From contig NZ_JAFEWC010000001.1 in NCBI RefSeq assembly GCF_017355875.1, positions 124,001 to 188,000 on the forward strand: a stretch of DNA of 64,000 nt, written 5' to 3'. The position numbers and the translations under genes were made by a program. The DNA is from Aridibaculum aurantiacum. Its GTDB lineage: Bacteria; Bacteroidota; Bacteroidia; Chitinophagales; Chitinophagaceae. How positions within the stretch are numbered: the first letter of the stretch is position 1; the number at the start of each line of letters is the position of its first letter. A model generated the notes under the pieces. That model ran no database searches. It worked only from the letters and a program-made list of their open reading frames with translations, and had not been told where the DNA came from. Positions 33,524 to 53,666 of this stretch are shown piece by piece.

Positions 33524-33570
33524 GAGCAAGTGTGTTTAGAGCTGCTAAATTAGTGGTTTTAGAGCAAAAG

Positions 33571-33584
33571 CTAACAATTGTTAG
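33571..33584. promoter_or_regulatory. Palindromic operator upstream of paaA
   Basis: CTAACAATTGTTAG is a perfect 14-bp palindrome, 48-61 bp upstream of the paaA ATG. It matches the site before the tetR-paaE pair (CTAACAGTTGTTAG, 53653-53666) at 13 of 14 positions. This spacing and sharing suggest a TetR-type repressor site. Confidence 0.75.
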
Positions 33585-33657
33585 TTTTTTTATCTTATTC
33601 TTTGATACCGCAGAAAGCTCTACCTTGCCTCCTGAATTGCGCCTAAAGTAGTTAGCT

Positions 33658-34236
33658 ATGGACGATTGCTACCACGCTATAAAACATTTAATCTCTATTG
33701 GTAACGAGCAGGCATTCTCGCAGCTCTACAACAGTTTCTATGCCCGGTTGATAGCGTTTTCTAAATCTATAACGCGCAGCCAGGAGCAGGCAGAAGAGGT
33801 AGTGGAAGATGTGTTTATCAAGCTGTGGCGAAAGCGCCAGCAGCTACCAGGTGTTCAGAACCTGCAGGTATATTTATATGTGGCTACTAAAAATACTTCG
33901 CTCAACGCGGTAGCCGACAAAGCAAAGACTCTCTCTATTCAACCATTCGACGACCTTGATATTGACCTGGACCACCAGGGCATGAACCCTTACGACCTCA
34001 TGATCACGCAGGAAATGCAGATGCGGATGATGCAGGCCATAGATAATCTTCCACCGCGATGCAAAATGATCTTTAAGCTGGTGAGGGAAGACGGACTGAA
34101 ATATAAAGATGTAGCAGAGGTGCTGAATATTTCTGTAAATACTATTGATGCTCAAATGGCCATTGCAGTAAAACGAATTTCCGAAGCCTTGCAGGTAGCA
34201 AAACCTAAAACGACACCATCTAAAAAGCTCCAGTAA
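33658..34236 (+). CDS. ECF RNA polymerase sigma factor (FecI-like)
   Basis: 192 residues. Region 2 is visible as FSQLYNSFYARLIAFSKSI and EEVVEDVFIKLWRKR. Region 4 reads LPPRCKMIFKLVREDGLKYKDVAEVLNISVNTID (residues ~129-162). It should direct transcription of the SusC/SusD operon when released by the FecR protein encoded next. Divergent from paaA; its own upstream region shares the intergenic gap with the paa operator. Confidence 0.95.
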   Translation: MDDCYHAIKHLISIGNEQAFSQLYNSFYARLIAFSKSITRSQEQAEEVVEDVFIKLWRKRQQLPGVQNLQVYLYVATKNTSLNAVADKAKTLSIQPFDDLDIDLDHQGMNPYDLMITQEMQMRMMQAIDNLPPRCKMIFKLVREDGLKYKDVAEVLNISVNTIDAQMAIAVKRISEALQVAKPKTTPSKKLQ

Positions 34237-34297
34237 AATTTTTTCTTCTTCTTAGTAGATGTCTTTGTTTTTACTGTCCTGTGGTGGTAACACCTGG

Positions 34298-35341
34298 ATG
34301 GACAACGAACAAAACGATATTTACCTGCTTATAGCCCGCTGCCTTAGTGGAGAGGCTACCGATATGGAAAGGCAGGCGCTGCACGAAGCCATGAGGAACG
34401 ACGATCAGCTACAACAACAATACGAGCTGATGCAGCGAATGTGGGGTGCAAAAGGCCTTACAGATACCACTGCCCAGCAAACTGAACAGAAGTTAGGAAA
34501 GATCTTCCAGCAGGCAGTGATAGAAGATGTAATTGAAAAATCTGCAAGGCGAAAAGCCTTTACAAGAAAAATAAACCTGGCTGTTGCAGCTGTATTCATC
34601 CTAACGGTATGCGGCACCTGGTTCTTTCAGCAACCTAAACTCCAAAAAAACCAAACTGCTGCTGTACAAATGTTGAAAACCGAGAATGGTAGCAGGTCTA
34701 GGAACGTGTTGCCAGATGGTTCAGTAGTATGGCTAAACGGAGGTTCAACGCTCAGGATACTGCCAAAGTTCAACCAAAGCTCCCGCGAAGTAGCCATAGA
34801 AGGCGAAGGATATTTTGAGGTAGTGAAGAGTAAGAAGCCTTTCATTGTACATGTGCGCGATCTAAAACTAACTGTGCTGGGAACCGCTTTCAATGTAAAG
34901 TTTTTCCCAAGTGATAAAACCATAGAAACAACGCTGATAACCGGCAGCTTAAAAGTGACAAGAACCGGGCAAAAGGAAGTGGTACTGAAGCCAAAGGAAA
35001 AAATTGTTTTAGATGAAGAGCCGGTAGCAGCCAAAGCCAAACCCGCCCTGGAACAATATGTTCAATCATTGGAAATGAATCACCCTTCTGAAATAGTGGA
35101 AACAGCCTGGATCTTCAACAAGCTTGAGTTCAGGGGTGACAATTTTGAAACACTGGCTTCTAAAATGGAACGCTGGTACAACGTGGAGATTACTTTCCAG
35201 GATGAGCGATTGAAGAAGATGTCATTTAATGGTTCTTTCCAGGACGAAACCATAGAACAGGCTTTACAGGCATTGCAAATAGTAGCCCCATTCACTTATA
35301 AAATAGAAGACAATGAAATACTTATTGGTTCACCTAAATAA
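34298..35341 (+). CDS. FecR-family anti-sigma factor
   Basis: 347 residues from ATG 34298 (MDNEQNDIYLLIARCLSGEATDMERQAL); an upstream ATG at 34259 adds 13 residues but spoils the cytoplasmic N-terminus. A cytoplasmic anti-sigma domain (~1-85) is followed by one TM helix (~95-112, INLAVAAVFILTVCGTWFF), the FecR domain (RSRNVLPDGSVVWLNGGSTL, EGEGYFEVVKSKKPFIVHV, GTAFNVKF) and a C-terminal STN-like/DUF4974 domain (FRGDNFETLASKMERWYNV). It relays contact from the SusC receptor to the sigma factor. Encoded 61 bp after it. Confidence 0.94.
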   Translation: MDNEQNDIYLLIARCLSGEATDMERQALHEAMRNDDQLQQQYELMQRMWGAKGLTDTTAQQTEQKLGKIFQQAVIEDVIEKSARRKAFTRKINLAVAAVFILTVCGTWFFQQPKLQKNQTAAVQMLKTENGSRSRNVLPDGSVVWLNGGSTLRILPKFNQSSREVAIEGEGYFEVVKSKKPFIVHVRDLKLTVLGTAFNVKFFPSDKTIETTLITGSLKVTRTGQKEVVLKPKEKIVLDEEPVAAKAKPALEQYVQSLEMNHPSEIVETAWIFNKLEFRGDNFETLASKMERWYNVEITFQDERLKKMSFNGSFQDETIEQALQALQIVAPFTYKIEDNEILIGSPK

Positions 35342-35422
35342 CCTGCATCCGAAGTAGTGAAGCCTCTGCTGCGGATAATAACGACTAAAAATTTTGAGCA
35401 CCAATTATCAATTAAAAAAACA

Positions 35423-38400
35423 ATGAGTAGAAAACTAACGCTTACTAACAGAAGACAAAATTTGCCTTCGTTAGCCATAAGAATACTCTTCATTTTCTTG
35501 CTTGCATTCTCTTCACAGGTTTCAGCAAAAGGTTTTTCTCAAGACCGTTTAAGCATCAGCTTTAAGAATGCTGAGATCTCAAAAGTATTGGCACATATAG
35601 AAAAACAAACGACCTACAGATTCCTGTATAACGAGTCGTTGCAAGGCATAAAGCAAAAGGTAAACCTTAGCCTGCAGGATGCCGACATTAAGCAGGCGCT
35701 GGATGTAATTTTCTCCGGCACCGGCTTATCGTACCGCTTCATGGAAAACAACCTTGTTGTGATACGTGAAGAAGCAGGTACATCTGCTAACCTGCCCGAT
35801 ATTCCTGTAACAGGAAAAGTAACCGGCGGCAGCGGTGAGGCGGTTGCTGGTGTATCAATTACCGTAAAAGGCAGTACCCGCGGCACAAGCACTGACGCGC
35901 AGGGAAATTATTCTCTGGTAGTACCAGACAATGCTATACTGGTTGTTTCCGCCGTTGGTTTCAGTACGCAGGAGATTGAGGTAAACAACAGGCGCACTAT
36001 CAACATACAGTTGGCCGGTAGCACCACGCAATTGGAGCAGGTAGTGGTAGTAGGTTATGGTACACAACGCAAAAGAGATCTTACAGGTTCTATTACCTCT
36101 ATTAGTGGTAATGAAATAGCCAAGCAACCAAACGTAAACCCGGTAGCATCGCTGCAGGGTAAGGTGGCTGGTCTTACCATTGTTAACAGTGGTCGTGCAG
36201 GTGCACAGCCCACGGTACGTATAAGGGGTGTAAATAGTACGAACAACACGGATCCGCTGTACGTAGTGGATGGTGTGTTCCAGACAAATATCGACTACAT
36301 AAACCCGGGCGACATTGAAAGCATGGAGGTTCTGAGAGACCCATCTTCATTGGCCATCTTCGGTCTGCAGGGAGGAAATGGTGTGATCATCATTACCACA
36401 AAACGTGCAGCGCGTGGTACAACACGTGTTAGTTTCCAAAGCACTGTAGGTGTGCAGGTAGTGCAGGATAAAATTGCGCTAACTGATGCAGAAGGTTTTA
36501 AGAGATTATATTCCGCGCAGCTGGCGAATATCAACGCGCAGCCATTCGACTTCAGAAACTATACTGCGAATACCAACTGGCAGGACCTGATCTTCCGCGA
36601 CGCGATCATCAACAATAACACGATGACTATCTCAACCAGTGGTGAAAAAGGATCAACACTTGTCAGCCTTGGCTACAATGTGCAGGAAGGTGTTTTGCGT
36701 AATGACAAATACCAGCGTTTCGTGGCTCGTCTCAACCAGGAGATACGTGTAAATCAAAACATTCGTGTAGGAGGTGACCTGAATGGTACCTACTGGAAGA
36801 GAAACAATGCAGAAGCTAATATCACCAACGCTCTTTGGGCAGCACCCATTGTGCCTGTTCGCTCTCCTGATGGTTTGTATTACACGATGCCGTCATTTCA
36901 GCGTGCGCAGGTAGGCAACCCGGTTGCCCGCCTCGACAGGTTTGACGGAACTGATGTGATACACGGCGTTCGTGCAGTAGGTAGTTTGTTTGGCGAAATA
37001 AAATTCCTCAAAAACTTTACCTGGCGCTCTGCCTTCCTTACTGACTTGAGCTTCAACATCAACAGGGGCTATAACCCACTGCCTTTCCAGGTTATCAACC
37101 TTGGAGAAGGTACAGCACCTACCGATACATTCTACGACAGGAACGTACGCACCTCCGTTACACAAGGACAATCTGAGTTCAGGAAATTCCAGCAAGATCA
37201 CACGCTAACGTTTGATCGCAGCTTTACAGGTGGCCACAAGATCACCGCGTTGGTTGGCTTCACAACGCTTTTCAACGGTAGCTCGAGCCTTAGTGGTACC
37301 CGTCGCGATACTGGCTTAAACGTGCCAAATGATCCTAACTTCTGGTACCTGAACATTATTAGCCCGAACAACCCGACTACTAATGCTGGTGGTGGAAATG
37401 CCGAGTCATTTATGTCGTACCTGGCGCGGGTGAATTACTCCTTTGGCAACAAGTACCTCGTGAATGCCTCTTTCAGGCGTGATGGAAGTTCAAAGTTCGC
37501 ACCAACAAGTCGCTGGGGCAACTTCGGAAGTATTGGTGTGGGTTGGGTGATTAGCGAAGAATCGTTCTACAACTTCAAGGCGATCAACTTCCTGAAACTG
37601 CGTGGCGCATGGGGTACCGTAGGAGCTGCCCTCGGCTTCCCGGCCAACCTTTTCCGCCCGGGATTAACAACAGCTAACGTAGGTGTGTTTGGTGACAACG
37701 TATATGGCTCTGTTGCTCCTGCATATGTTCCCGATCCAAACCTGCGGTGGGAAAAAGTTCGCGGTGTTGATCTGGGACTGGACTTCAGGGCACTGGCAAA
37801 CAGGCTGAATGGTGAACTTACATTCTACGATCGTACAACTGTAGACATATTAACGACAGTAACGCTTCCTGGAGCTGCAGGTAATTATAACTACCGCACC
37901 AACCTGGGAACGATCTCTAACCGTGGCGTGGAACTAAGCCTCGGCTGGAATGACCGCATAGGACGCGACTGGACGTATAGGCTTGGTGGTAACATCAGCT
38001 ACAACAAGAACAACGTGGAATCGATCGGTAACAATATCAACTTCCAGATACTAGGTAACGCCGGTGCCAACCGTACCGTTACCGGCCAGTCGATCGGGCA
38101 CTTCTTTGGCTACCAGCAAGTCGGTATTTACCAATCTGTAGCTGACCTTAATAAGCGACCAAGTTTTGTGAACTCACTTCCGGGAGACATAGCTTACCAG
38201 GATACGAATGGTGATGGCATAATAGACCAGAACGATCGTACTTACCTGGGAACTCCATTCCCGCTGTACAACTTTGGTGCAAGCTTCGGCCTGGGCTACA
38301 AAGGCTTCGACTTCCTGGTAGAAGGACAAGGTGTTGCCGGCAACAAGATCTACGCCCAGCGCCGTACAGAAACATTTGCGACTCTAAACTATGAAGTGAA

Positions 38401-38743
38401 CCGTCTGAACGCATGGACAGTCCCTGGAACATCGAACGTTGAGCCGATAATGGACAACACCCGCGGTAACAACTTCCTGTTCAGTTCTTACTTCCTTGAG
38501 CCGGGTGATTACTTCAGGATAAGGACCCTGCAGGTTGGCTATACCTTCACGCCAACTTCGCTGCGTCGCCTGGGTATGAGCCAGCTTCGGATGTTCCTCA
38601 GTGGACAGAACATTGCAACATTTACCAAAGCTACTGGCTATACTCCAGAGGCCTCACTTGGTAATCCTGTTGCAAGTGGAGCCGACAACGGTACGTACCC
38701 TGTACCAGCCGTTTATTCATTTGGTGTAAATGTTACTTTTTAA
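35423..38743 (+). CDS. SusC/RagA TonB-dependent outer-membrane receptor with STN domain
   Basis: 1106 residues. Signal peptide (LFIFLLAFSSQVSAKG), STN domain at about 38-100 (SFKNAEISKVLAHIEKQTTYRFLY), carboxypeptidase-like beta-sandwich (GKVTGGSGEAVAGVSITVKG), plug (VVVGYGTQRKRDLTGSITSI, ~185) and a beta-barrel to the C-terminal YSFGVNVTF. The STN domain marks it as a receptor that signals to the FecR protein encoded upstream. It imports oligosaccharides with the SusD lipoprotein encoded 19 bp downstream. ATG 35423 precedes the signal peptide; a longer frame exists but is not plausible. Confidence 0.96.
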   Translation: MSRKLTLTNRRQNLPSLAIRILFIFLLAFSSQVSAKGFSQDRLSISFKNAEISKVLAHIEKQTTYRFLYNESLQGIKQKVNLSLQDADIKQALDVIFSGTGLSYRFMENNLVVIREEAGTSANLPDIPVTGKVTGGSGEAVAGVSITVKGSTRGTSTDAQGNYSLVVPDNAILVVSAVGFSTQEIEVNNRRTINIQLAGSTTQLEQVVVVGYGTQRKRDLTGSITSISGNEIAKQPNVNPVASLQGKVAGLTIVNSGRAGAQPTVRIRGVNSTNNTDPLYVVDGVFQTNIDYINPGDIESMEVLRDPSSLAIFGLQGGNGVIIITTKRAARGTTRVSFQSTVGVQVVQDKIALTDAEGFKRLYSAQLANINAQPFDFRNYTANTNWQDLIFRDAIINNNTMTISTSGEKGSTLVSLGYNVQEGVLRNDKYQRFVARLNQEIRVNQNIRVGGDLNGTYWKRNNAEANITNALWAAPIVPVRSPDGLYYTMPSFQRAQVGNPVARLDRFDGTDVIHGVRAVGSLFGEIKFLKNFTWRSAFLTDLSFNINRGYNPLPFQVINLGEGTAPTDTFYDRNVRTSVTQGQSEFRKFQQDHTLTFDRSFTGGHKITALVGFTTLFNGSSSLSGTRRDTGLNVPNDPNFWYLNIISPNNPTTNAGGGNAESFMSYLARVNYSFGNKYLVNASFRRDGSSKFAPTSRWGNFGSIGVGWVISEESFYNFKAINFLKLRGAWGTVGAALGFPANLFRPGLTTANVGVFGDNVYGSVAPAYVPDPNLRWEKVRGVDLGLDFRALANRLNGELTFYDRTTVDILTTVTLPGAAGNYNYRTNLGTISNRGVELSLGWNDRIGRDWTYRLGGNISYNKNNVESIGNNINFQILGNAGANRTVTGQSIGHFFGYQQVGIYQSVADLNKRPSFVNSLPGDIAYQDTNGDGIIDQNDRTYLGTPFPLYNFGASFGLGYKGFDFLVEGQGVAGNKIYAQRRTETFATLNYEVNRLNAWTVPGTSNVEPIMDNTRGNNFLFSSYFLEPGDYFRIRTLQVGYTFTPTSLRRLGMSQLRMFLSGQNIATFTKATGYTPEASLGNPVASGADNGTYPVPAVYSFGVNVTF

Positions 38744-38762
38744 ACTACGAAACGATTAAATA

Positions 38763-40313
38763 ATGAAATACACATTCATCAACTCGCGGAAAATGCTGGC
38801 CATAGCGGTGCTGGTTACCGTTGCAGGCCTACTGTCGGGATGTAAGAAGAACTTCCTGGATAGGGAACCGCAGGGGCAATATACCCTGGAGACTTACCCA
38901 TACCCAAGCGGATCGGGACCTTACGATACCTATCTCTTCGGCGCATACTCTGAGTTGCGCGCCTACAATGTGCATAGTCAATTCTTCATTGCGGCTACCA
39001 GTATACGCAGCGACGATGCTGACAAGGGAAGTACACCAGCTGACGGAGGCGCTAACGTTATCAGCATGGACAACTTCCCGGTGCTACCAGACAACGGCTA
39101 TACCAATGGCCTGTGGACCGGCTACTATACTATGGTAAACAGGTGTAACATCGCCATCGACCAGGTAAGGCACAATGCGGCCATCGAAGCAACACCAGCG
39201 GTGAAGGCTCAATCAGAAGCTGAGGCCCGCTTCCTGCGTGCTTATGCTTACTTCAACCTGGTTCGTTTCTTCGGCCGTGTACCTTTAGTAGATAGTGTAT
39301 TTACTGACGCAGCATCTCAGTCGAACGTACCTCAAAGCCCGCCGGCTGTTATTTACAACTTCATTGAGAATGACCTCCAGTTTGCAGCAGCTAACCTGCC
39401 GCTTAGCTGGGATGCGCAGTTTGTTGGTCGTGCAACCAAAGGAGCGGCCAACGGCCTCCTTGCTAAAGTTTACCTGACACAACAGAAATGGGCGCAGGCA
39501 ATGACTACTGCGGGTATGGTAATTAATTCTGGTGTTTATAGTCTACATCCTTCGTACGACATCCTCTTCAGGGAGCAGGGCGAAAACAGCCAGGAGTCAG
39601 TATTTGAGGTGCAGGCAACGGCTAATGCTACACAGCAAACGGCGTTTGGTGTTCAGTACGCTTCTATACAGGGTGTAAGAGGCGCTGGACAGTGGAACCT
39701 TGGATGGGGTTGGAATACGCCAAGCGAGCAACTGGCATCTGTTTACGAACCAGGTGATCCTCGCCGTGGACGTACGATCCTTTTTACCAGTACAGCAACT
39801 ACACCGGGTATCACCATCTATGGAGAAACTACACCGCAAGGGTTGCCGAACCCGCGTTACAACCATAAGGTGTATACTAACCCACAGATAAGAAGCTCTG
39901 TCAATAGCCAGGCTGGCTATTGGTTCAATATACGCCTGCTACGCTACGCTGACGTGCTGCTGATGTATGCTGAAGCGGCCAACGAAGTGGGCGGAACGGC
40001 TAATACAACAGAAGCGCTGGCTAAACTGGAAATGGTAAGGGCTCGTGCACGTGCAGGTAACAATGCCATCCTGCCGCCAGTTACTACCACCAACCAGGGC
40101 CAGCTTCGCGATGCAATAAGGCACGAGAGAAGAGTAGAGTTGGCTATGGAGCATGATCGTTTCTGGGATATTGTTCGTTGGGGTATTGCACAGCAGGTAC
40201 TACACGCTGCAGGCAAAACAAACTTCAACCAAAACCGTGACGTACTGCTACCAATACCACAGGTGCAGATTGACCTGAGCCGCGGTGTGCTGACACAAAA
40301 TCCAGGCTATTAA
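38763..40313 (+). CDS. SusD/RagB-family glycan-binding lipoprotein
   Basis: 516 residues. Lipobox LLSGCKKNFLD near residue 27. SusD motifs: RNYL-like segment TGYYTMVNRCNIAIDQV, SEAEARFLRAYAYFNLVRFFGRVPL, and RLLRYADVLLMYAEAANEVGG with the C-terminal RHERRVELAMEHDRFWDIVRWG. It binds the glycan at the cell surface and caps the SusC pore. The SusCD pair follows the sigma and FecR genes directly. Confidence 0.96.
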   Translation: MKYTFINSRKMLAIAVLVTVAGLLSGCKKNFLDREPQGQYTLETYPYPSGSGPYDTYLFGAYSELRAYNVHSQFFIAATSIRSDDADKGSTPADGGANVISMDNFPVLPDNGYTNGLWTGYYTMVNRCNIAIDQVRHNAAIEATPAVKAQSEAEARFLRAYAYFNLVRFFGRVPLVDSVFTDAASQSNVPQSPPAVIYNFIENDLQFAAANLPLSWDAQFVGRATKGAANGLLAKVYLTQQKWAQAMTTAGMVINSGVYSLHPSYDILFREQGENSQESVFEVQATANATQQTAFGVQYASIQGVRGAGQWNLGWGWNTPSEQLASVYEPGDPRRGRTILFTSTATTPGITIYGETTPQGLPNPRYNHKVYTNPQIRSSVNSQAGYWFNIRLLRYADVLLMYAEAANEVGGTANTTEALAKLEMVRARARAGNNAILPPVTTTNQGQLRDAIRHERRVELAMEHDRFWDIVRWGIAQQVLHAAGKTNFNQNRDVLLPIPQVQIDLSRGVLTQNPGY

Positions 40314-40340
40314 TATTAATCATTCTATTAAACTAGATAT

Positions 40341-41831
40341 ATGAACCTGATTAAATGTTTAAAATCATTTACCACTGTACTTGCCATTAGTATTATTGGT
40401 TTAAGTGCATGTAAAAAGGATGGCAATCCCAATAAGTTGCCAAATGCAGACAATAGGGAGTTTGCAGACAGAATAAATAATGGCGTTATTAAAGTTTTAG
40501 CCATTGGTAATAGTTTTTCTGAAAATGCTCTTGAAAGCAATTTTTATGATCTAGCAAAAGCCTCCGGAAAGAAAGTAATAGTAGGCAATTTGTTTATAGC
40601 TGGCGCGTCTTTGGATTTACATAAAAAAAATGCACTTGGACAATTATATGCCTATGAATACAGGAAAATAGATGAAACGGGTACTAAGAAAACTTACAAG
40701 CCATTTTCTATTGATGTAGCACTTTTAGATGAGCCATGGGATTATATCAGCTTTCAGCAAGCTAGTCCTGAATCCGGATTATTACCTACAGTCCAGGCTG
40801 CATTGCCAGACTTATACAATTATGTAAAAAGCAAGTCGAAAAACCCGGGTGCAAAGTACGTATATCATTCTACCTGGGCATATGCGCCAGTAACAACCAA
40901 TACGGGTTTTGCAAACTATAATAACAACCAGTTAACCATGTACAATGCCATAGTTAACGTTGCGCAGAATGTAAATACGATTTCTCCCATTGACATGATT
41001 GTACCAACTGGAACTGCTATTCAAAATGCAAGGACTAGCCAATTAGGCGAAAGTTTTACTGTGGCAGATGGCTATCATTTAAATACTTTAGGAAAATACG
41101 TAGCCGCTTGTACATGGTATGAGAAAATTTTTGGCGTATCGGTTGTAGGAAATACTTACACTGGTGGACTTTCAGATTTCGAAGTAAAAGTTGCTCAAAA
41201 TGCAGCACATTTCGCGGTTCTCAAGCCATTTGAAATTACATCAATGTCTAGTTTTGAAGCAGATCCGGTTCAATTAACAAAACCAGTACTTATTGATTTT
41301 GGAAATGCTACCCCTTCACCATCATGGAATCAAATGTCAGGCTTTACTGTTGGTAGTAGAATAAATTTAAAAGATAGTTTAAATGCATTCGTTGGTATTT
41401 CTATAACCGTTATTGAACGCTTTAATAACATTAATACAAACGGAGCGACTAACACCACTACACCTATGAATATGCCAAGTAATGTTTCGGCCCGTAATTT
41501 TTTCGGTAATGCGGCGGGTGTTTTTGGGGGTTTAACAACGCCACAAGGTGTTTTTGAACTTAGGGGTTTACTCCCTTCTTTAACTTACAACTTTAGCTTT
41601 TTTGGTTCAAGAGATGCTACTGATAATAGAGAAACAAAATATACTGTGGCTGGTATGAACCAAGGTTCGGGTACATTAAATCCGTCATCAAACTCAACAG
41701 CTATTGCCACAATAAATAACATTAGGCCAACTGCAGATGGCAAATTGACAATCACGGTTACTGCAGGACCTAATAATGTATCTGCTAATAAATGGTTTTA
41801 TATAAATGCTGCTAAAATAACTTCTAACTAA
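40341..41831 (+). CDS. DUF4886-type SGNH lipoprotein
   Basis: 496 residues. Lipobox SIIGLSACKK near residue 20. The SGNH fold shows block I (VLAIGNSFSENA), an Asn-containing segment (YVYHSTWAYAP) and the Asp/His of block V (VADGYHLNTLGKY). The last ~220 residues form a separate beta-rich module (FEADPVQLTKPVLIDFG...). DUF4886 proteins are presumed esterases acting on glycan acyl groups. Base composition is visibly more AT-rich than in the flanking SusD and GH144-like genes, and a terminator follows 44 bp after the stop, so it may have been acquired separately. Confidence 0.85.
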   Translation: MNLIKCLKSFTTVLAISIIGLSACKKDGNPNKLPNADNREFADRINNGVIKVLAIGNSFSENALESNFYDLAKASGKKVIVGNLFIAGASLDLHKKNALGQLYAYEYRKIDETGTKKTYKPFSIDVALLDEPWDYISFQQASPESGLLPTVQAALPDLYNYVKSKSKNPGAKYVYHSTWAYAPVTTNTGFANYNNNQLTMYNAIVNVAQNVNTISPIDMIVPTGTAIQNARTSQLGESFTVADGYHLNTLGKYVAACTWYEKIFGVSVVGNTYTGGLSDFEVKVAQNAAHFAVLKPFEITSMSSFEADPVQLTKPVLIDFGNATPSPSWNQMSGFTVGSRINLKDSLNAFVGISITVIERFNNINTNGATNTTTPMNMPSNVSARNFFGNAAGVFGGLTTPQGVFELRGLLPSLTYNFSFFGSRDATDNRETKYTVAGMNQGSGTLNPSSNSTAIATINNIRPTADGKLTITVTAGPNNVSANKWFYINAAKITSN

Positions 41832-41874
41832 ACCGTTATTTTTTCAGGTGTAATAAGACCAATTACTAAACACT

Positions 41875-41919
41875 ATGCCTGTTGAAGTTTTTAGAAAAAA
41901 TGTCAGCAGGCATTTTTTT
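41875..41919 (+). terminator. Terminator after the SusCD-DUF4886 unit
   Basis: ATGCCTGTTGA (41875-41885) pairs with TCAGCAGGCAT (41903-41913) with one wobble pair, a 17-base A/T-rich loop and a T-run of seven. It separates the SusCD transcript from the enzyme genes that follow. Confidence 0.7.
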
Positions 41920-42070
41920 AGTCCAAAATATTTTATCGGCTACAATGGTATAAGTAGTAATTGCAATTAAATTATGAGTAAGTGATTTGCTGCTCCGAGG
42001 TAAAAGCAGGAATGCGGACATTAGGTTTTTCTGCTCCTTACCTGTAACAGATAAACATATCAGATAGAAG

Positions 42071-43432: not shown

Positions 43433-43437
43433 CAGTT

Positions 43438-43515
43438 GGAACCACGAAGGCACAAAGCGCACGAAGTTCCACTAAGTCTTCGTGAGCCTTTGTTTACTTG
43501 GTGTCTTGGTGGTTC
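43438..43515. repeat. ACCACGAAGGCAC-type inverted repeat
   Basis: GGAACCACGAAGGCACAAAG, continuing GCACGAAG to 43466, pairs imperfectly with 43478-43515 (CTTCGTGAGCCTTTG ... TGTCTTGGTGGTTC). Words like AACCACGAAGGCACGAAG are common dispersed repeats in environmental bacterial genomes; this is one copy. Coding frames through it are not real genes. Confidence 0.75.
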
Positions 43516-43544
43516 AAGAGAAAAGTTTAAACCAAGTATTACAA

Positions 43545-43566
43545 GTACAAGTGTGCGACGCAACGA
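43545..43566 (+). repeat. 22-bp dispersed repeat, copy 1
   Basis: Contains ACAAGTGTGCGACGCA and differs from the second copy at 51789-51810 by one base out of 22. The two copies flank the enzyme genes of the glycan locus in direct orientation. Confidence 0.75.
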
Positions 43567-43601
43567 TGTTAAAGAGAAATACAAAAGCTGGAAACATAAA
43601 A

Positions 43602-45320: not shown

Positions 45321-45360
45321 GAACAGGTTGATCGGCTATAGCAAAACAAATAATGACAGA

Positions 45361-46344
45361 ATGAGAAGGGTAGCTTTTATATGCTTAAGTATATTGGCAG
45401 TAGCATGCAACAGCAAGATGCATACTGCCCGCATCGTGTTATTACCCGATACGCAAACCTATGCTGAGAAGTTCCCGCACATACTTGACACGCAGCTTAA
45501 TTGGGTAGCGCGTAATGCAAACAATATTGATTTTGTTTTACAACAAGGCGACCTTACTCAAAACAATAATGATAAAGAATGGCAGGTAGTTAAAAATGCC
45601 TTTGCACGAATAGATCATAAACTGCCTTATGTGCTGGCACTTGGTAATCATGATATGGGAAGTACACCGGGTAAGTTTGCAGACACACGCAATACTGAAC
45701 TTTACAACCGTTACTTTCCTTACCAGAGCTTTTTAAAACTGCCAGGCTTTGCCGGTTCATTTGATGCAACCACAACAGACAACGCCTATTACCTGCTGCA
45801 AACAGGACGCGTAAAATGGTTGGTGCTTACGCTTGAATTTGGTCCAAGAGATACGGTGCTCTCATGGGCAAATGATGTAGTAAGCAGGTATCCCGACAGG
45901 CTTGCAATCATCAACACACATAGCTATATGTACAGCGATAGCACCAGGCAAGGGCCCGGCGACTACTGGCGTGCGCATGGTTATGGAGTAGGTAAAGACA
46001 CCGGTGATCATAAGGTGAATGATGGAGAGCAGATGTGGAATAAACTGGTGAAGAAGCATGCAAACATTCGCTTTGTTTTCTCGGGTCATGTTTTGAATAC
46101 AGGAGTAGGAACACTGGTCAGCATCAACGATGCAGGGCTGCCTGTGTACCAGATGCTGGCCAACTACCAGGAAGGCGTAAAAGGCTCCATCAATGGTGGC
46201 AATGGTTTCCTGCGGATACTGGATATGAACTTCATGAAAGGAACAATGAAAGTAACCAGTTGGTCGCCTTATTCCAATGAGTACATGGACAGGCCAGGAC
46301 ACAATTTTGAAGTAAAGCACGTACTATATAAACCAGCGTTATAG
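45361..46344 (+). CDS. Calcineurin-like metallophosphoesterase lipoprotein
   Basis: 327 residues from ATG 45361; lipobox LAVACNSK near residue 16. The metal-binding motifs occur in order: LPDTQTY (modified D-x-H), LQQGDLTQNN, ALGNHDMG, NTHSYMY and FSGHVLNTG. It should hydrolyse a phosphoester in the periplasm or at the surface. Within the locus it may remove phosphate decorations from the glycan. The stop is immediately followed by the ATG of the next gene. Confidence 0.85.
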   Translation: MRRVAFICLSILAVACNSKMHTARIVLLPDTQTYAEKFPHILDTQLNWVARNANNIDFVLQQGDLTQNNNDKEWQVVKNAFARIDHKLPYVLALGNHDMGSTPGKFADTRNTELYNRYFPYQSFLKLPGFAGSFDATTTDNAYYLLQTGRVKWLVLTLEFGPRDTVLSWANDVVSRYPDRLAIINTHSYMYSDSTRQGPGDYWRAHGYGVGKDTGDHKVNDGEQMWNKLVKKHANIRFVFSGHVLNTGVGTLVSINDAGLPVYQMLANYQEGVKGSINGGNGFLRILDMNFMKGTMKVTSWSPYSNEYMDRPGHNFEVKHVLYKPAL

Positions 46345-47001
46345 ATGAAGAAAATAACATTTTTCCTACTGTTGTTTATGCTAACGAGTAGCTACCAGCT
46401 ACTAGCTCAGCAGCGACCATTTTGGAACGAGATACAAAACTTTAAAAAGCAGGACAGCATACAGGCACCGCCTTCAAATGCTATCCTTTTCATTGGCAGT
46501 TCTTCCTTTACCATGTGGAGAGATGTAAAGGATTATTTCCCCGGCCACACAATTATCAACCGTGGTTTTGGTGGTAGCTCGCTGCCGCATCTCATCACTT
46601 ATTTTGATGACGTGGTAAAGCCATACAATCCAAAGCAGGTTGTTATTTACTGCGGCGAGAATGATCTAACTGTTGATACTGTTCAGCCGCATCATGTGCT
46701 GCAGCGTTTCACACAATTGTTCAATATGATAAAACAAACTTATCCTGCTGTTCCCGTTGCTTTTATTTCTATAAAACCTAGCCCTAGCAGGGCCAACCTG
46801 ATGCAGCGGATGGAGTTAAGCAACCAATTGATAAGGCTGTTTCTTGCAAAGCAGGCAAACACTCATTACATCAATGTTTACAATGATATGCTGGTGAATG
46901 GAAAGCCTGATCCTAAACTTTTTATTGGCGATAATTTGCACATGAATGCAAAAGGATATGCCATTTGGCAAAAGCAAATAGAACCTCTATTAAAGAAATA
47001 A
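46345..47001 (+). CDS. SGNH/GDSL-type hydrolase, exported
   Basis: 218 residues with a signal peptide (MKKITFFLLLFMLTSSYQLLAQ). Blocks I-V: ILFIGSSSFTMW (catalytic Ser), GFGGSSLPHL (oxyanion Gly), YCGENDLTV (Asn) and FIGDNLHMNAKGY (Asp, His). Probably an acetyl esterase that removes acyl groups from the glycan. The ATG directly follows the preceding stop and the next gene starts after one base, so the three are one unit. Confidence 0.88.
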   Translation: MKKITFFLLLFMLTSSYQLLAQQRPFWNEIQNFKKQDSIQAPPSNAILFIGSSSFTMWRDVKDYFPGHTIINRGFGGSSLPHLITYFDDVVKPYNPKQVVIYCGENDLTVDTVQPHHVLQRFTQLFNMIKQTYPAVPVAFISIKPSPSRANLMQRMELSNQLIRLFLAKQANTHYINVYNDMLVNGKPDPKLFIGDNLHMNAKGYAIWQKQIEPLLKK

Positions 47002-47002
47002 A

Positions 47003-49309
47003 ATGAATAAAATGAAACGACTAAGCTGGTTGATTGTAGCCGTAATAGTATTTGGATGTTCTCAGACTAAACAAGCACAAACGTATAGCTCAGGTGATGT
47101 GGAGATGGATCGCTTTGTTGGCGACCTGTTGAGCAAAATGACAATAGAAGAGAAGATAGGTCAGCTTAACCTGCTAACACCAGGTGGTGGTATATTGACA
47201 GGATCTGTGGTGAACCCCGATGTAGAGCAAAAGATAAAAGCAGGAAATGTAGGTGGTTTGTTTGGTGTAATTGGTGTTGACAAGATAAGAAAGGCGCAGG
47301 AACTTGCTGTTACGCAAAGCCGGCTCAAGATTCCATTGTTGTTTGGTTCTGATGTCATTCATGGATACAAGACTACTTTTCCTATACCGCTTGGTTTATC
47401 GTGCAGTTGGGATATACCAATGATTGAGCGCAGTGCTCGTGTAGCGGCCAATGAAGCCACAGCCGATGGATTGAACTGGGTGTTTTCGCCAATGGTAGAT
47501 ATAGCCCGCGATCCACGCTGGGGTCGTGTAGCAGAAGGTGCCGGTGAAGATCCTTATTTAGGTGCGGCTGTATCTGCAGCAATGGTACGCGGCTACCAGG
47601 GAACCAACATGGCTGCTGATACCACACTCATGGCTTGTGTAAAGCACTTTGCTTTATATGGCGCCGCCGAAGGTGGACGTGATTATAACACCACCGACAT
47701 GAGCCGCCTGCAGATGTATGAATATTATTTTCCTCCTTACAAAGCAGCAGTAGATGCAGGTGTTGGAAGTGCTATGACTTCTTTCAATGAAATAGATGGA
47801 ATACCTGCTACCGGCAATCGTTGGTTGTTGACTGAACTATTGAGGAACCAGTGGGGTTTCAAAGGCTTCGTTGTTACTGACTATACAGCCATCAACGAAA
47901 TGATAGATCATGGTTCTGGTGACCTGCAACAGGTATCGGCACAGGCGCTGCGTGCAGGAACAGATATGGATATGGTGGGCGAAGGTTTTTTGAAAACGCT
48001 GAAAAAATCATTGGACGAAAAAGCAATCACTGAAGCAGAGATCACCCTTGCTTGCAGAAGGATACTAGAAGCGAAATACAAGTTGGGCTTGTTCCAGGAC
48101 CCGTACAAGTATACCAATGCGCAACGCGCAACAAGGGAAGTTTTAAGTGCTGATAAAAGAGCCGCAGCAAGAGAGTTTGCAGTTCGTTCAAGCGTGTTAT
48201 TGAAGAATACAAACCAAACGCTTCCGTTGAAGAAAACCGGCACTATAGCCCTGATTGGTCCCCTGGCAAATGATAAGAACAATATGCTTGGTACATGGGC
48301 TGTAAGTGGCGACAAAGATCTTTCTATTCCTGTTTTAACCGGAATGAAGAACGTAGCAGGCGCAGGTGTGAACATCATTTATTCTAAAGGAGCCAACATA
48401 ACAGATGATACAGCACTGGCTAAAAAAGCCAATGTATTTGGAGAAAGAGCGAGCATAGATTCTTTGTCACCTGCCAGACTACTGAGTGATGCAGTAGCTA
48501 CTGCCAACCGTGCTGATGTGATAGTTGCTGTAGTGGGTGAAGCTTCTGAGATGAGTGGTGAGGCAGCAAGCCGTAGTGACATCAATCTACCTGGCAACCA
48601 AACAGCTTTGTTGGAAGCACTGGCTAAAACAGGTAAACCACTGGTGGTTGTGATGATGAGCGGAAGGCCACTAACCATAACCCGTGAAATGCAGCTGGCA
48701 ACATCTTTCTTACATGTATGGTTCCAGGGACATGAAGCTGGTAATGCCATAGCCGATGTATTGTTTGGCAACTACAATCCTTCAGGAAAATTGACGATGA
48801 GTTTTCCTTACAATGTAGGACAGATACCTGTGTACTACAACCACAAGAATACAGGTCGTCCGCAAGGTCCTGGCCCTACTCAAAAATTCCGTTCAAATTA
48901 TTTAGATGTAAGCAACGATCCTTTCCTTCCGTTTGGTTTTGGATTAAGCTATACCACTTTCACTTATGGAGATGTTCGTTTGGACAAAACTACTATGCAG
49001 GCAAATGAACAGTTGCGTGTAACTGTTCCTGTTACCAATAGTGGTCGCTTTGCAGGAGAGGAAGTGGTTCAACTATACATTCATGATAAGGTGGCTTCTG
49101 TAACACAGCCGGTAAAAAAATTAAAAGCTTTTCAAAAGATCATGATACGTCCAGGCGAATCAAGAGAGGTTGTTTTCAATCTTTCTGTTGAGGATCTGAA
49201 GTTTTACAACAGCGAATTTAAATGGGTATCTGAACCCGGTGAATTTACCGTGATGGTTGGTGGCAATTCACGTGATGTGAAGCGTGCTGACTTCACATTG
49301 AGAAATTAG
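47003..49309 (+). CDS. GH3-family beta-glycosidase lipoprotein
   Basis: 768 residues. Lipobox VIVFGCSQTK near residue 19. The GH3 N-terminal barrel has GVIGVDKIRKAQELAV, DVIHGYKTTFPIPLG, MVDIARDPRWGRVAEGAGEDPYLG, CVKHFALYGAAEGGRD and the catalytic nucleophile Asp in GFVVTDYTAI. A C-terminal alpha/beta sandwich (SSVLLKNTNQTLPLKKTG) and an FN3-like domain (EEVVQLYIHDKVASV) follow. It likely releases glucose from the oligosaccharides made by the GH144-like enzyme; exo-beta-1,2-glucosidases with this architecture are known in Bacteroides. Confidence 0.93.
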   Translation: MNKMKRLSWLIVAVIVFGCSQTKQAQTYSSGDVEMDRFVGDLLSKMTIEEKIGQLNLLTPGGGILTGSVVNPDVEQKIKAGNVGGLFGVIGVDKIRKAQELAVTQSRLKIPLLFGSDVIHGYKTTFPIPLGLSCSWDIPMIERSARVAANEATADGLNWVFSPMVDIARDPRWGRVAEGAGEDPYLGAAVSAAMVRGYQGTNMAADTTLMACVKHFALYGAAEGGRDYNTTDMSRLQMYEYYFPPYKAAVDAGVGSAMTSFNEIDGIPATGNRWLLTELLRNQWGFKGFVVTDYTAINEMIDHGSGDLQQVSAQALRAGTDMDMVGEGFLKTLKKSLDEKAITEAEITLACRRILEAKYKLGLFQDPYKYTNAQRATREVLSADKRAAAREFAVRSSVLLKNTNQTLPLKKTGTIALIGPLANDKNNMLGTWAVSGDKDLSIPVLTGMKNVAGAGVNIIYSKGANITDDTALAKKANVFGERASIDSLSPARLLSDAVATANRADVIVAVVGEASEMSGEAASRSDINLPGNQTALLEALAKTGKPLVVVMMSGRPLTITREMQLATSFLHVWFQGHEAGNAIADVLFGNYNPSGKLTMSFPYNVGQIPVYYNHKNTGRPQGPGPTQKFRSNYLDVSNDPFLPFGFGLSYTTFTYGDVRLDKTTMQANEQLRVTVPVTNSGRFAGEEVVQLYIHDKVASVTQPVKKLKAFQKIMIRPGESREVVFNLSVEDLKFYNSEFKWVSEPGEFTVMVGGNSRDVKRADFTLRN

Positions 49310-49396
49310 TATAACCCCCAGGTAAGAGTGGCTGCGGCTGGTGCATACCGGCTGCGCCACACCTTATTGATTTTCCAAAAGATCTAAAGCACGTTT

Positions 49397-50866
49397 ATGA
49401 AAATAGTTTATAATGCCATTAAAATACTGTTTTTTACCTGTCTTATCACTTCACCTGCCTTCAGCCAAACAGAAGGACCGTTAGGTGATCTTTTCATGGC
49501 TAAAGAAGGTGCCTTGGCACACTACTCCAGTTACGACAGTACTGGTGGTAATGCAGATTTTAAACGCATAGAACCAGGACAAACCTTGGTACTGGCTAAT
49601 CATAAAGGAGCAGGTGTTTTAAGAAGATGGTGGCTAACCATTGCGCCATGGAACCTGGTAGATGTACATCGTTCGCTTATTATCCGCTGTTACTGGGATG
49701 GTGAAAAGGAGCCTTCGGTAGAGGTGCCAGTATCAGATTTCTTTGGAATGGGCTTTGGTGAATGGAAAGACTTTCAGTCTACGCCGCTTAACATGACCAG
49801 TGGTGGTTACAATTCTTACTGGCCTATGCCATTTCATAGAAGTGCTTATATAACGGTTGAGAATCGTGGTACCACACCTGTTTCAAGTTTCTACTATAAC
49901 ATCGACATCAGGACTTATAACAAGCTGCCTAAAGATGCCCTGTATTTTCATGCGCAATACAAGCAGGAAAGAACAGTAGCTGGTAAACCACTTACCATTC
50001 TTCAAACCACCGGCAGAGGACATTATGTGGGCACGCTGATTTCTATGCAACCGCGCCAGGGAAACCATCTTGGTTACTTAGAAGGTGACGAGATCATCTT
50101 CATTGATGGCGAGAAGAACCCTTCTATAATTGGAACGGGTACAGAAGATTATTTTTCATCAGGCTGGTACTACAATACAGGCGAGTACAGTGCGCCTTAC
50201 CATGGTGCTACGGTAAAAGATGATTCAGGAAGGATCAATACTTATCGTTGGCATATAGAAGATCCCATTCCTTTCAAGAAGAGTTTCAGGTTTGATATGG
50301 AGCATGGCGGTACGAATGACATGCCTGGAGTAGAATATACTTCGGTTGCTTATTGGTACCAGGATCATCCTGGTCCTTCTTTCCCGGCTTTGCCTAAAAA
50401 CCTGATGCCTCATTCTCAAACCATGACACCATCTATAGAAGGAGAAAGTTTGTTAACGCAAGCAAGGGTAACCGGCGGCCAGCTACGTGTGCAGGAGACG
50501 AAAGGCTTCAAAGGAACATGGGGTAATGATTCACATCTATGGTGGGTGGAAGCAAAACCTGGTGATAAACTAACCATTCCTATCACCGCACCTGAAGCAG
50601 GTACTTACGAGCTTATTGGATTCTTCACCCAGGCAAGAGATTACGGCATTTTCAGAACTTCGGTAAATGGCAAATTAGCCGGTCATTTGTTTGATGGTTT
50701 TAGTACCGATGTAGTACCCTCTGGTCCTATATCATTTGGTACTGTACCCCTGCAAAAAGGAACCAACCAGGTGGTGATAGAGATAATAGGTAAAGACGCA
50801 AGGTCAGCAGGATATAGTGATGGTTATCTTGTAGGTATAGATGGTTTTCATTTGGAGAAACAATAA
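49397..50866 (+). CDS. GH172 (DUF2961) family exported protein
   Basis: 489 residues with a signal peptide (IKILFFTCLITSPAFSQ). The DUF2961 core runs from EGPLGDLFMAKEGALAHYSS through GAGVLRRWWLTIAPW, VPVSDFFGMGFGEW, YNSYWPMPF, GTGTEDYFSSGWYYN and YRWHIEDPIPFKKSFRFDMEHG. A C-terminal module (WVEAKPGDKLTIPITAPEAG...) resembles a carbohydrate-binding jelly roll. GH172 members cleave furanosides (fructose dianhydride, arabinofuranose, galactofuranose). Its presence suggests a furanose decoration on the target glycan. Confidence 0.85.
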   Translation: MKIVYNAIKILFFTCLITSPAFSQTEGPLGDLFMAKEGALAHYSSYDSTGGNADFKRIEPGQTLVLANHKGAGVLRRWWLTIAPWNLVDVHRSLIIRCYWDGEKEPSVEVPVSDFFGMGFGEWKDFQSTPLNMTSGGYNSYWPMPFHRSAYITVENRGTTPVSSFYYNIDIRTYNKLPKDALYFHAQYKQERTVAGKPLTILQTTGRGHYVGTLISMQPRQGNHLGYLEGDEIIFIDGEKNPSIIGTGTEDYFSSGWYYNTGEYSAPYHGATVKDDSGRINTYRWHIEDPIPFKKSFRFDMEHGGTNDMPGVEYTSVAYWYQDHPGPSFPALPKNLMPHSQTMTPSIEGESLLTQARVTGGQLRVQETKGFKGTWGNDSHLWWVEAKPGDKLTIPITAPEAGTYELIGFFTQARDYGIFRTSVNGKLAGHLFDGFSTDVVPSGPISFGTVPLQKGTNQVVIEIIGKDARSAGYSDGYLVGIDGFHLEKQ

Positions 50867-50950
50867 GTAAATGAAGAGCATCTAAAACATTAGGATCATG
50901 TACCAATGTTCTCCTGCTCATCGATGATCAATCTCAATAAGTATATATAA

Positions 50951-51754
50951 ATGAAGAACAAGAGCAATATGCAGAAGCTGTTAGTGATCGTGATGTTGTT
51001 TATCACTTTGCCCGTATTAGCGCAGGATAAGTCATTGTACCAAAAGCAGTGGTTTATACAGAACGGAGATACGATGCCTTATCGCATCATGTTCCCAATC
51101 AACTTCGATTCATCTAAAACATATCCTGTAGTATTCTTCTTACATGGTCGTGGCGAAAGTGGCAACGATAATGAGAAGCAATTAACGCATGGGTGGAAGT
51201 TTTTTGCCAACGACAGCGCCAGGAGAGAGCATCCCGCCATCGTAGTATTTCCGCAGTGCGACAACAAGAGCTATTGGGCTAATGTGCAGATGATAGCACA
51301 TGAAAAAAGCACCGGCAAGCGGACCTTCTATTTTGTACCGGACGGTCCGCCCTCAGTGCCTATGACTATGTTGATGCAACTGGTCGATAACATCATGACA
51401 CGCTTCAAAATAGATGAAAGACGCGTGTATGTTGGCGGACTATCAATGGGTGGAATGGGCACTTATGAACTGGTACGTCGTAAACCAAAAACATTTGCTG
51501 CAGCATTTGCTATATGTGGAGGTGCACATCCGGGTACGGCAAGAGAGATACGTAGAACAAAATGGTGGTTGTTTCACGGGATGAAAGATGATGTGGTGCT
51601 GCCGGAGTATACGCAGCAAATGGAAGCTGCGCTGAAAAAAGCTAGGGCTGATGTAAGAGCAACCTATTATCCCAATGCTAACCACAATAGCTGGGATCCT
51701 GCATTTGCTGAGCCGGGATTGCTGGATTGGTTATATGCACAAAGGCGGAAATAA
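50951..51754 (+). CDS. Alpha/beta-hydrolase (dienelactone-hydrolase/CE1-like esterase), exported
   Basis: 267 residues with a signal peptide (MLFITLPVLAQDKSLY). Fold motifs: VVFFLHGRGESGNDNE (oxyanion turn), nucleophile elbow YVGGLSMGGMGTYE, Asp in GMKDDVVLPEYTQQ and His in YPNANHNSWDPAF. It is similar to polysaccharide-locus esterases/phospholipases of the PHB-depolymerase type. It closes the locus; no terminator is evident directly after it, but a dispersed 22-bp repeat follows. Confidence 0.85.
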   Translation: MKNKSNMQKLLVIVMLFITLPVLAQDKSLYQKQWFIQNGDTMPYRIMFPINFDSSKTYPVVFFLHGRGESGNDNEKQLTHGWKFFANDSARREHPAIVVFPQCDNKSYWANVQMIAHEKSTGKRTFYFVPDGPPSVPMTMLMQLVDNIMTRFKIDERRVYVGGLSMGGMGTYELVRRKPKTFAAAFAICGGAHPGTAREIRRTKWWLFHGMKDDVVLPEYTQQMEAALKKARADVRATYYPNANHNSWDPAFAEPGLLDWLYAQRRK

Positions 51755-51788
51755 TAGCTGCAGCATGCATGCTGCTATGCTTGATGCC

Positions 51789-51810
51789 GTACAAGTGTGC
51801 GACGCAGCGA
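51789..51810 (+). repeat. 22-bp dispersed repeat, copy 2
   Basis: Contains ACAAGTGTGCGACGCA, 21 of 22 positions identical to 43545-43566. It lies 35 bp after the last gene of the glycan locus. Confidence 0.75.
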
Positions 51811-51958
51811 AAGTTTAAAAAAGTACTACTGCTGACCATTAAAAAAGAAAAAAACTACTTGTGAAAGATCTCATAGCTGATATGGTAGATCCTTGGTTTG
51901 TTTATGTACTATAGCACCGCCCTTCACTATCGCATGGAGAAGGGAAGGGGATGAGCCG

Positions 51959-53035
51959 TTATTTCACATCAAAGTCAACCACCACCTTCTCGGTACGCGG
52001 GTGCGACTGGCAGGTGAGGATGAAGCCATGCTCTATCTCTTCCTGCTCGAGCGCATAGTTTACATCCATATCTATTTCGCCTTCTACCAGTTTGGCGCGG
52101 CAGGTGCTGCACACGCCCCCTTTGCAGGCAAAGGGAAGATCTGCACCTTGCTTGAGCGCGGCATCCAGGATGCTCTCGCCCTCGAAGCCAAGATCAAAAT
52201 CAAATGAGGAACCATCGAGCTTGATAGTGATCTTGCTCTTCACCTCAGAACTTGTTTCGTTCTTGTTAGTTACTACTTTTTTCTTGCTACTACTTGTTGT
52301 AAACAGCTCAAAATGGATCTTCTTTTTATCTACGCCTTTTGCTTCCAGGCAGTCGCGTACACTGAAGATCATCTCTTCGGGTCCACACAAGAAGATCTCA
52401 TCAATGGTGGCAATGTCAATCGCTTTGTCGAACAGGTGCGTGCACTTCTCGCTGTTGATCCGCCCGAAGTTGATGGGTGCATCCATCTTCTCGCGGCTTA
52501 AGATATGTATGATGCGAAAGCGGTTGATAAAGCGGTTTTTCAGCGCTTCCAACTCTTCTTTAAAAATTACGGAATGGCGGTTTCTATTGCCATACACCAG
52601 GGTAAAATTGCTGTTGGGCTCTGTGAGCAAAGTCGTTTTGATGATGGACATAATAGGCGTGATACCACTTCCTGCAGCAAATGCCAGGTAGCTTTTCTTT
52701 TGCGAGGCATCAAGCTCTGTATAAAATTGTCCGACCGGCGGCATGGCTTCCAGCGTATCGCCCTTGCGCAGTTGTGTATTGGCATAAGTAGAAAATACAC
52801 CTTGGTCAATCTTCTTTACAGCTATGCGCAATTCATCATCTAAAGGGCTGCTGCAAACGGAATAGGAGCGGCGGACTTCTTCTCCGTCGATGGTGGTTCT
52901 GATGGTTAAAGATTGACCTTGCTTATAGATGAATTGCTCCTTTAGTTCTTCAGGAACATCAAAGCTTATAGATACACAATCAGGCGTTTCGTGCCTTACC
53001 TCTTTTACGGTTAATGTGTGAAAATGGATTGACAT
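51959..53035 (-). CDS. paaE: Phenylacetyl-CoA epoxidase reductase PaaE
   Basis: 358 residues. An N-terminal FAD-binding ferredoxin-reductase domain (RRSYSVCSSPLDDEL is the R-x-Y-S motif) is followed by the NAD domain (FAAGSGITPIMSIIKT, LCGPEEMIFSVRDCL). The C-terminal [2Fe-2S] ferredoxin domain has cysteines in FACKGGVCSTCRAKL and LTCQSHP. It passes electrons from NAD(P)H to the PaaA di-iron centre. A Ser/Lys-rich linker (~240-260) precedes the ferredoxin domain. It is 12 bp downstream of the TetR gene and far from the rest of the paa operon. Confidence 0.94.
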   Translation of the reverse strand: MSIHFHTLTVKEVRHETPDCVSISFDVPEELKEQFIYKQGQSLTIRTTIDGEEVRRSYSVCSSPLDDELRIAVKKIDQGVFSTYANTQLRKGDTLEAMPPVGQFYTELDASQKKSYLAFAAGSGITPIMSIIKTTLLTEPNSNFTLVYGNRNRHSVIFKEELEALKNRFINRFRIIHILSREKMDAPINFGRINSEKCTHLFDKAIDIATIDEIFLCGPEEMIFSVRDCLEAKGVDKKKIHFELFTTSSSKKKVVTNKNETSSEVKSKITIKLDGSSFDFDLGFEGESILDAALKQGADLPFACKGGVCSTCRAKLVEGEIDMDVNYALEQEEIEHGFILTCQSHPRTEKVVVDFDVK

Positions 53036-53047
53036 AGGTTGCTCTTG

Positions 53048-53638
53048 CTAATTTTTAAGACCACTGATAAGTATAGTGATCATGTTTTCTTCCAGCGCCT
53101 GGGGATCGATCTTGCGTTTTGACCGGTGCCACGACTCGATGCCACTAATGGCGTGTAGTAGTATGAGTACTGCGGTAGGCGCATCAATGGGTTTTATTCT
53201 TCCTGCAGCAATACCTGCTTCTATAAGCATGGTAAACTGCTGCCGGTAATTGCGGCGCATAGCCTTGTAGTCTGTTAGTTGCGGTTCAGATAAATGCCGC
53301 CATTCACGGTCACTCACATATACCTCATCATATCGCTGCACCATTTCCTGTATATGAAAACGAAGAATGGTCTCAAGCTTTCCTGATGGATCTTCAGCAC
53401 TCGCCATCACTGCTTCCATTTTAGAAAAAAAGCGTTGTGCTACCTGTAGGCAAATGGAATGGAGCAATTCGTTTTTAGAAGAAATATGGTTGTACAAGCT
53501 GGCGGCCTCTATACCCAGCGCTTCGGCCAGGTCGCGCATGCTGGTGGCTTTAAAACCTTTTTCTTTAAATAGTGAAGCAGCTTTTTCAATGATCAATTCT
53601 TTACGTGAAACATGCTGTTCAACTTTCATCCTGGCCAT
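53048..53638 (-). CDS. TetR-family transcriptional regulator
   Basis: 196 residues. The N-terminal HTH reads LIIEKAASLFKEKGFKATSM and RDLAEALGIEAASLYNHISSK, and the C-terminal ligand domain is helical. It shares a transcript with paaE. A near-perfect palindrome (53653-53666) 15 bp before its own start is repeated upstream of paaA, so autoregulation and control of the epoxidase operon are likely. Its ligand is then probably phenylacetyl-CoA, as for known PaaR repressors; this is inference. Confidence 0.9.
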   Translation of the reverse strand: MARMKVEQHVSRKELIIEKAASLFKEKGFKATSMRDLAEALGIEAASLYNHISSKNELLHSICLQVAQRFFSKMEAVMASAEDPSGKLETILRFHIQEMVQRYDEVYVSDREWRHLSEPQLTDYKAMRRNYRQQFTMLIEAGIAAGRIKPIDAPTAVLILLHAISGIESWHRSKRKIDPQALEENMITILISGLKN

Positions 53639-53652
53639 GCTGCGAAAGTAAG

Positions 53653-53666
53653 CTAACAGTTGTTAG
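53653..53666. promoter_or_regulatory. Palindromic operator upstream of tetR-paaE
   Basis: CTAACAGTTGTTAG, symmetric except for the central GT pair, and 13/14 identical to the site upstream of paaA. It lies 15-28 bp before the TetR start. Confidence 0.75.

Follow-up and report, generated by a model that had tools for sequence, protein, structure and literature searches.

We examined a 64,000-nucleotide window of the Aridibaculum aurantiacum genome (Bacteroidota; contig NZ_JAFEWC010000001.1, positions 124,001 to 188,000) that holds the genes of a phenylacetyl-CoA epoxidase in two operons, paaABCD and tetR-paaE, with paaZ at a third place (Table 1). A 14-bp palindrome stands before each epoxidase operon, and the gene for a TetR-type repressor shares an operon with the reductase gene paaE. 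The subject of this report is the predicted regulon formed by this repressor and these two operators. Genes were named by NCBIfam models with curated cut-offs and domains by Pfam gathering scores.

Table 1. Features of the window, with positions counted from its first nucleotide.
Feature	Position	Strand	Basis
Operator palindrome CTAACAATTGTTAG before paaABCD	33571..33584	.	Exact; 23.2 bits, rank 1 of window positions
Operator palindrome CTAACAGTTGTTAG before tetR-paaE (CTAACAACTGTTAG on coding strand)	53653..53666	.	Exact; 21.8 bits, rank 2
tetR, PaaR-type repressor gene (196 aa)	53048..53638	-	Pfam TetR_N and TetR_C_24 above gathering scores
paaE, epoxidase reductase	51959..53035	-	TIGR02160, 477 bits, cut-off 421
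paaA, epoxidase catalytic subunit	32576..33523	-	TIGR02156, 535 bits, cut-off 280
paaB	32195..32533	-	TIGR02157 above cut-off
paaC	30879..31739	-	TIGR02158 above cut-off
paaD	30333..30863	-	TIGR02159 above cut-off
paaZ, weakly or not at all in the regulon of this genome	10317..12362	+	TIGR02278, 917 bits, cut-off 563 (on longer frame from 10260)
Degenerate operator remnant CTTACAAACGATTG before paaZ	10297..10310	+	3 mismatches; 5.2 bits, rank 22 in window; same place as the site of relative G135
Possible -7 element TAATTTAG, paaA promoter	33545..33552	-	By eye, one mismatch to TAnnTTTG; weak
Possible -7 element TACTTTCG, tetR promoter	53643..53650	-	By eye, one mismatch to TAnnTTTG; weak
Inserted block separating paaE from paaA, outside the regulon: extracytoplasmic function (ECF) sigma gene; FecR-like, SusC/SusD-like and glycan-active-enzyme-like open reading frames (ORFs)	33658..51754	+	Sigma gene by Pfam; others by reading ORFs
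Four-helix-bundle (23S rRNA intervening-sequence-type) gene between paaB and paaC	31739..32119	-	TIGR02436 and PF05635

The first-pass annotation of this DNA had claimed that one palindrome is shared by the paaA and tetR-paaE promoters, and this holds: both sites are exact and are conserved in place among relatives. Two exact sites were observed against a mean of 0.00 after shuffling. The genome-wide motif search that the annotation suggested returned two exact copies of CTAACANNTGTTAG in 4.86 Mb, namely CTAACAATTGTTAG and CTAACAGTTGTTAG, both before paa operons, and not many copies in unrelated places. When the window was scored with a matrix built from 68 tetR and paaA sites of relatives (window genome excluded; lowest score among the 68, 14.1 bits), the next-best position after the two operators reached 11.5 bits, against 23.2 and 21.8. 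The looser form CNAACRNNYGTTNG has 19 sites in the whole genome. Eight places in the genome match with one mismatch. Six of these lie inside ORFs, and the remaining two stand 118 bp before a deacetylase-like gene and 3 bp before a putative secreted-protein gene; we dropped all eight as further regulon members because none is linked to paa genes. A related half-site claimed earlier before the pfkB gene proved to be at chance level by the relatives' matrix (1.87 bits, rank 56) and was rejected as an operator. Among 36 relatives, nine (G077, G098, G148, G180 and five others) carry an extra CTAACA half-site 22–35 bp upstream of the tetR operator, at five offsets.

Conservation was surveyed in 198 genomes of the host order, where TetR was present in 122 (E ≤ 1e-20), PaaA in 145 (E ≤ 1e-60) and PaaZ in 91 (E ≤ 1e-100). 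A site was counted when it lay within 120 bp 5' of the gene with at most one mismatch to CTAACRNNYGTTAG. The count took in 61 of the 122 TetR genomes, 65 of the 145 PaaA genomes and 52 of the 91 PaaZ genomes. Coverage of the host family was 45/45 for TetR, 47/48 for PaaA (G129 left out) and 46/47 for PaaZ (G119, with the gene split over contigs, left out); rows outside the host family are our picks from score-ordered lists. Sites were found upstream of paaA in 32/65 genomes (host family 32/47), upstream of tetR in 32/61 (25/45), upstream of paaZ in 16/52 (15/46) and upstream of paaE in 5/46. Control upstreams had no site (paaB 0/17, paaC 0/5, paaD 0/11, the hydratase gene beside paaZ 0/29), the reversed motif gave 0 matches in every gene class, and letter-shuffled upstreams, which preserve base content only, matched in 0–0.24%. 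The upstream of pfkB, a gene divergent from tetR in many genomes, matched in 2/30.

The operator also recurs at greater distances. In a second family of the host order (f14), the sites detected upstream of paaA or paaE mostly read CGAACRNNYGTTCG. A sample of 296 genomes from the phylum contained TetR (E ≤ 1e-15) in 31, of which 22 are outside the order; a locus was obtained for 21 of these, of which 17 carry CNAACRNNYGTTNG within about 3.5 kb, compared with the 19 sites in the whole window genome. On the annotated plasmid of Saprospira grandis str. Lewin, the gene order is tetR, a thiamine-pyrophosphate enzyme, paaE, paaABCD, lower-pathway genes and paaZ. Here CGAACATTTGTTCG lies between tetR and the next gene, CGAACAAGCGTTCG between paaE and paaA, and a third match, CGAACAGATGTTGG, inside a thioesterase gene.

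Within the host family, the paaA site was present in 32/39 genomes with TetR and in 0/8 where TetR was undetected. The corresponding counts for the paaZ site were 15/38 and 0/8, and the tetR site occurred in 25/39 genomes with paaA and in 0/6 without it. Fisher p values for these associations, with relatedness ignored, were 2e-5 (paaA), 0.04 (paaZ) and 0.005 (tetR). The mutual loss of TetR or paaA and the sites comprises few independent events, which makes it supportive and not proof.

The structural model of the TetR protein (mean predicted local distance difference test score, 91.4) resembles acyl-CoA-responsive repressors. The nearest solved folds are PfmR of Thermus, AibR and KstR2 (query template modelling score 0.76–0.88 in the top rows), and PfmR was also the best solved relative by single-sequence search (3vpr, 7e-18). 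The AibR structures among these neighbors contain isovaleryl-CoA and operator DNA. KstR2 and PfmR respond to CoA thioesters, which are steroid-derived in the case of KstR2. PaaX, which is released by phenylacetyl-CoA, has a GntR-type winged helix; in the window protein, only TetR domains were found. The TetR gene is linked to paa genes in the window genome, as tetR-paaE. A Deinococcus match on a plasmid (L220) adjoins urate genes, not paa genes, so the distant TetR matches are not all PaaR. A genome of the same genus (G170, L137) has neither a PaaA nor a PaaZ match, and its intact TetR (47% identity) lies beside a pfkB that is 93% identical.

The −7 box of Bacteroidota promoters is TAnnTTTG. 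In relatives, an element like it starts inside the operator at offset 11 in 14/36 tetR, 21/52 paaA and 11/16 paaZ sites with ≤1 mismatch, whereas the largest shuffled column held 6, 9 and 4, respectively. In other paaA sites, such an element is 21 or 33 bases on. These positions make it likely that repression works by covering the promoter.

The roughly 20 kb between the two operons were inserted where paaE and paaA meet, a junction that varies among relatives as well. In 36 family genomes, a single contig carries both tetR and paaA; the two lie less than 1.8 kb apart in 19, 1.8–12 kb apart in 12 and more than 12 kb apart in 5, including the window genome. The paaA site was present in 15/19, 12/12 and 4/5 of these groups, respectively, and in 1/3 genomes with the two genes on different contigs. 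With an operator in front of each half, the two can be separated without necessarily losing co-regulation. One relative (G158) has a sigma gene beside paaA, and it and others carry extra DNA at the same junction. The four-helix-bundle gene looks as if it had been inserted repeatedly in or near paa clusters, with genes of its type between paaA and paaB, between paaB and paaC, or after paaD in five other loci (L142, L143, L167, L170, L275).

The first-pass annotation had also stated that no such site precedes paaZ and that PaaZ is controlled otherwise. There is indeed no good site, but a remnant with three mismatches does lie there. The best-matching paaZ relative (G135) has CTAACAAACGATAG, at 14.7 bits, in the same place, and no upstream site was found in the other close relatives G158, G101, G146, G083 and G133. 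Because the window remnant is degenerate and several close relatives have no site, paaZ seems to belong to the regulon only weakly and to drop out of it often. Separate control of PaaZ fits the window genome, where the remnant scores 5.2 bits against at least 14.1 for the sites of relatives, but fails as a rule for the family, in which 15/46 genomes retain a site with at most one mismatch.

Other pathway genes are scattered: contig 4 carries paaG-like and paaI-like genes at its end, and contig 3 a thiolase gene. The first of these stretches (L297; 9 kb, with paaG-like, paaI-like and hexapeptide-transferase genes) held no site with two or fewer mismatches. In the thiolase stretch (L298), the sole match has two mismatches and lies 1.4 kb upstream of the best thiolase, inside another ORF. 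No search of the genome for paaG, paaI, paaJ, paaH or paaK reached its curated cut-off, and these names therefore denote no more than the best match. The best genome match to phenylacetate-CoA ligase reached 75.8 bits against a cut-off of 646; phenylacetyl-CoA may therefore come by another route, for example from phenylpyruvate via a 2-oxoacid dehydrogenase. Control in the window genome looks restricted to the epoxidase.

A second class of PaaA appeared in the order survey. A divergent PaaA (50–57% identity) is held by 55 of the 145 PaaA genomes, 54 of them without a PaaZ match and 48 with TetR, while 89 of the other 90 have PaaZ. We read the TetR promoters of 12 of the 55 and found CNAACRNNYGTTNG upstream in 11; in the twelfth (G007) it lies 6 bases past the alignment-mapped start. 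Examples are genomes G031, G058, G060, G051, G005 and G102 and loci L181, L182 and L186–L189. The L186 cluster, tetR-paaABCD, is flanked by housekeeping genes and has no adjoining paaE. We regard this second class as a lead rather than an established finding.

PaaR of Thermus thermophilus HB8 (TTHA0973), a TetR-family protein, binds a 14-bp palindrome with the consensus CNAACGNNCGTTNG at two promoters, one of them that of its own paa operon (PMC6651687). The general form CNAACRNNYGTTNG contains this consensus. Because the switch recurs before the same genes in relatives and resembles the proven Thermus switch, we regard the predicted system as a real, conserved PaaR-type control circuit of the expected kind, confined to the epoxidase in the window genome. 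Most probably the repressor is autoregulated, acts at the tetR-paaE and paaABCD promoters and is released by phenylacetyl-CoA. The regulon proposed in the first-pass annotation for these two operons thus gains support from the conserved sites, their absence where either partner is undetected and the Thermus-like form. A TetR dimer would bind the palindrome CTAACRNNYGTTAG at both promoters. Both operators overlap or adjoin the core promoter, so a bound dimer would keep RNA polymerase out. Phenylacetyl-CoA, as it accumulates, would bind the C-terminal domain and make the dimer release DNA, and the reductase and oxygenase subunits would then be made together despite the distance between their operons. 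In the window genome, the lower-pathway genes and paaZ would belong to the regulon weakly or not at all.

Several observations weigh against this interpretation. No NCBIfam model at cut-off names the TetR product. In the host family, 14/39 tetR and 7/39 paaA upstreams lack a site at ≤1 mismatch even though both genes are present. Tree-independent pairs of mutual loss number 1 on the PaaA tree and 3 on the TetR tree (supported branches), which is not significant. Six family genomes lack paaA and still carry an intact TetR gene, whose product may serve another function in them. Both −7 elements of the window were assigned by eye with one mismatch each, and the comparison with Thermus PaaR covers operator form and gene context. 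The second base of the operator was callable as T or G in 58 of 70 genomes with TetR and a site (the 12 mixed ones were excluded), and residue 46 in the recognition helix of TetR, A or P versus S, splits the two operator types 38 and 0 versus 1 and 19. The outer base follows the TetR clade, however, the tree shows a single switch of operator type, and alignment columns beyond the helix divide the genomes too. For these reasons we rejected the covariation as independent proof.

Could the palindrome belong to another regulator (for instance a global factor or an unlinked TetR), with the adjacent TetR controlling something else? The six family genomes that keep TetR without paaA would fit such an arrangement, as would two more weak TetR-like matches in the window genome (20% and 28% identity). 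However, the paaA and paaZ sites are missing in the eight family genomes without detected TetR, tetR itself carries the site and the Thermus PaaR site has the same form, and we consider this explanation quite improbable. That the two palindromes are a coincidence is hardly credible at all: matches with two or three mismatches do occur at background level in the window and the genome, but the two exact sites have no counterpart in the shuffle mean, and dozens of genomes keep them in the same position while most controls have none.

It is also unlikely, on balance, that the TetR is cognate and responds to something other than phenylacetyl-CoA, such as another CoA thioester or a later intermediate. 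The nearest folds bind varied ligands, isovaleryl-CoA in AibR and steroid-derived CoA thioesters in KstR2, and the same TetR and operator accompany the divergent PaaA in genomes that lack a PaaZ match. On the other side, phenylacetyl-CoA is the substrate of the regulated genes' products, and Thermus PaaR is phenylacetyl-CoA-responsive, by the title of a 2011 paper.

A wider reading, less likely than not, takes in both PaaA classes. The same type of TetR and operator might control two Bacteroidota epoxidases: the usual PaaABCDE accompanied by PaaZ, and a divergent PaaABCD in genomes with no detected PaaZ. The latter would oxygenate a CoA thioester, feed a different downstream route and be under the same kind of repressor. 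The window regulon would have shrunk to the epoxidase, paaZ having escaped by operator decay. If so, the enzyme that removes the reactive product would be present before the epoxidase is induced. The CNAACRNNYGTTNG rule flags the PaaA class without a PaaZ match as under the same type of control, and it gives the Bacteroidota a defined, testable phenylacetate regulon. Complete phenylacetate pathways are uncommon in Cytophagia and Flavobacteriia, according to PMC13186573. We found no description of this regulator or operator in Bacteroidota in a literature search that left most subscription journals outside, and as far as it reaches, the PaaR-type regulon is new for the phylum.

Among known systems, PfmR, AibR and KstR2 are the nearest solved folds to the modeled TetR, but they share 22–27% identity with it and regulate other pathways. 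PaaX of Escherichia coli and Pseudomonas represses the same pathway (PMC9493321) and is a GntR-type protein of unrelated fold. PaaR of Burkholderia cenocepacia is, like the window protein, a TetR-type repressor of scattered paa loci; according to the same source, however, its operator ACCGACCGGTCGGTT has another sequence, and it also represses the paaZ and paaH promoters, whereas the good sites of the window belong to the epoxidase only. Thermus PaaR shares the TetR family, the linkage to paa genes and a 14-bp palindrome at two promoters. The window differs from it in its CTAACA/TGTTAG arms, in the split between tetR-paaE and paaABCD and in that its operator is predicted; the repressor logic it would follow is the one proven in Thermus.

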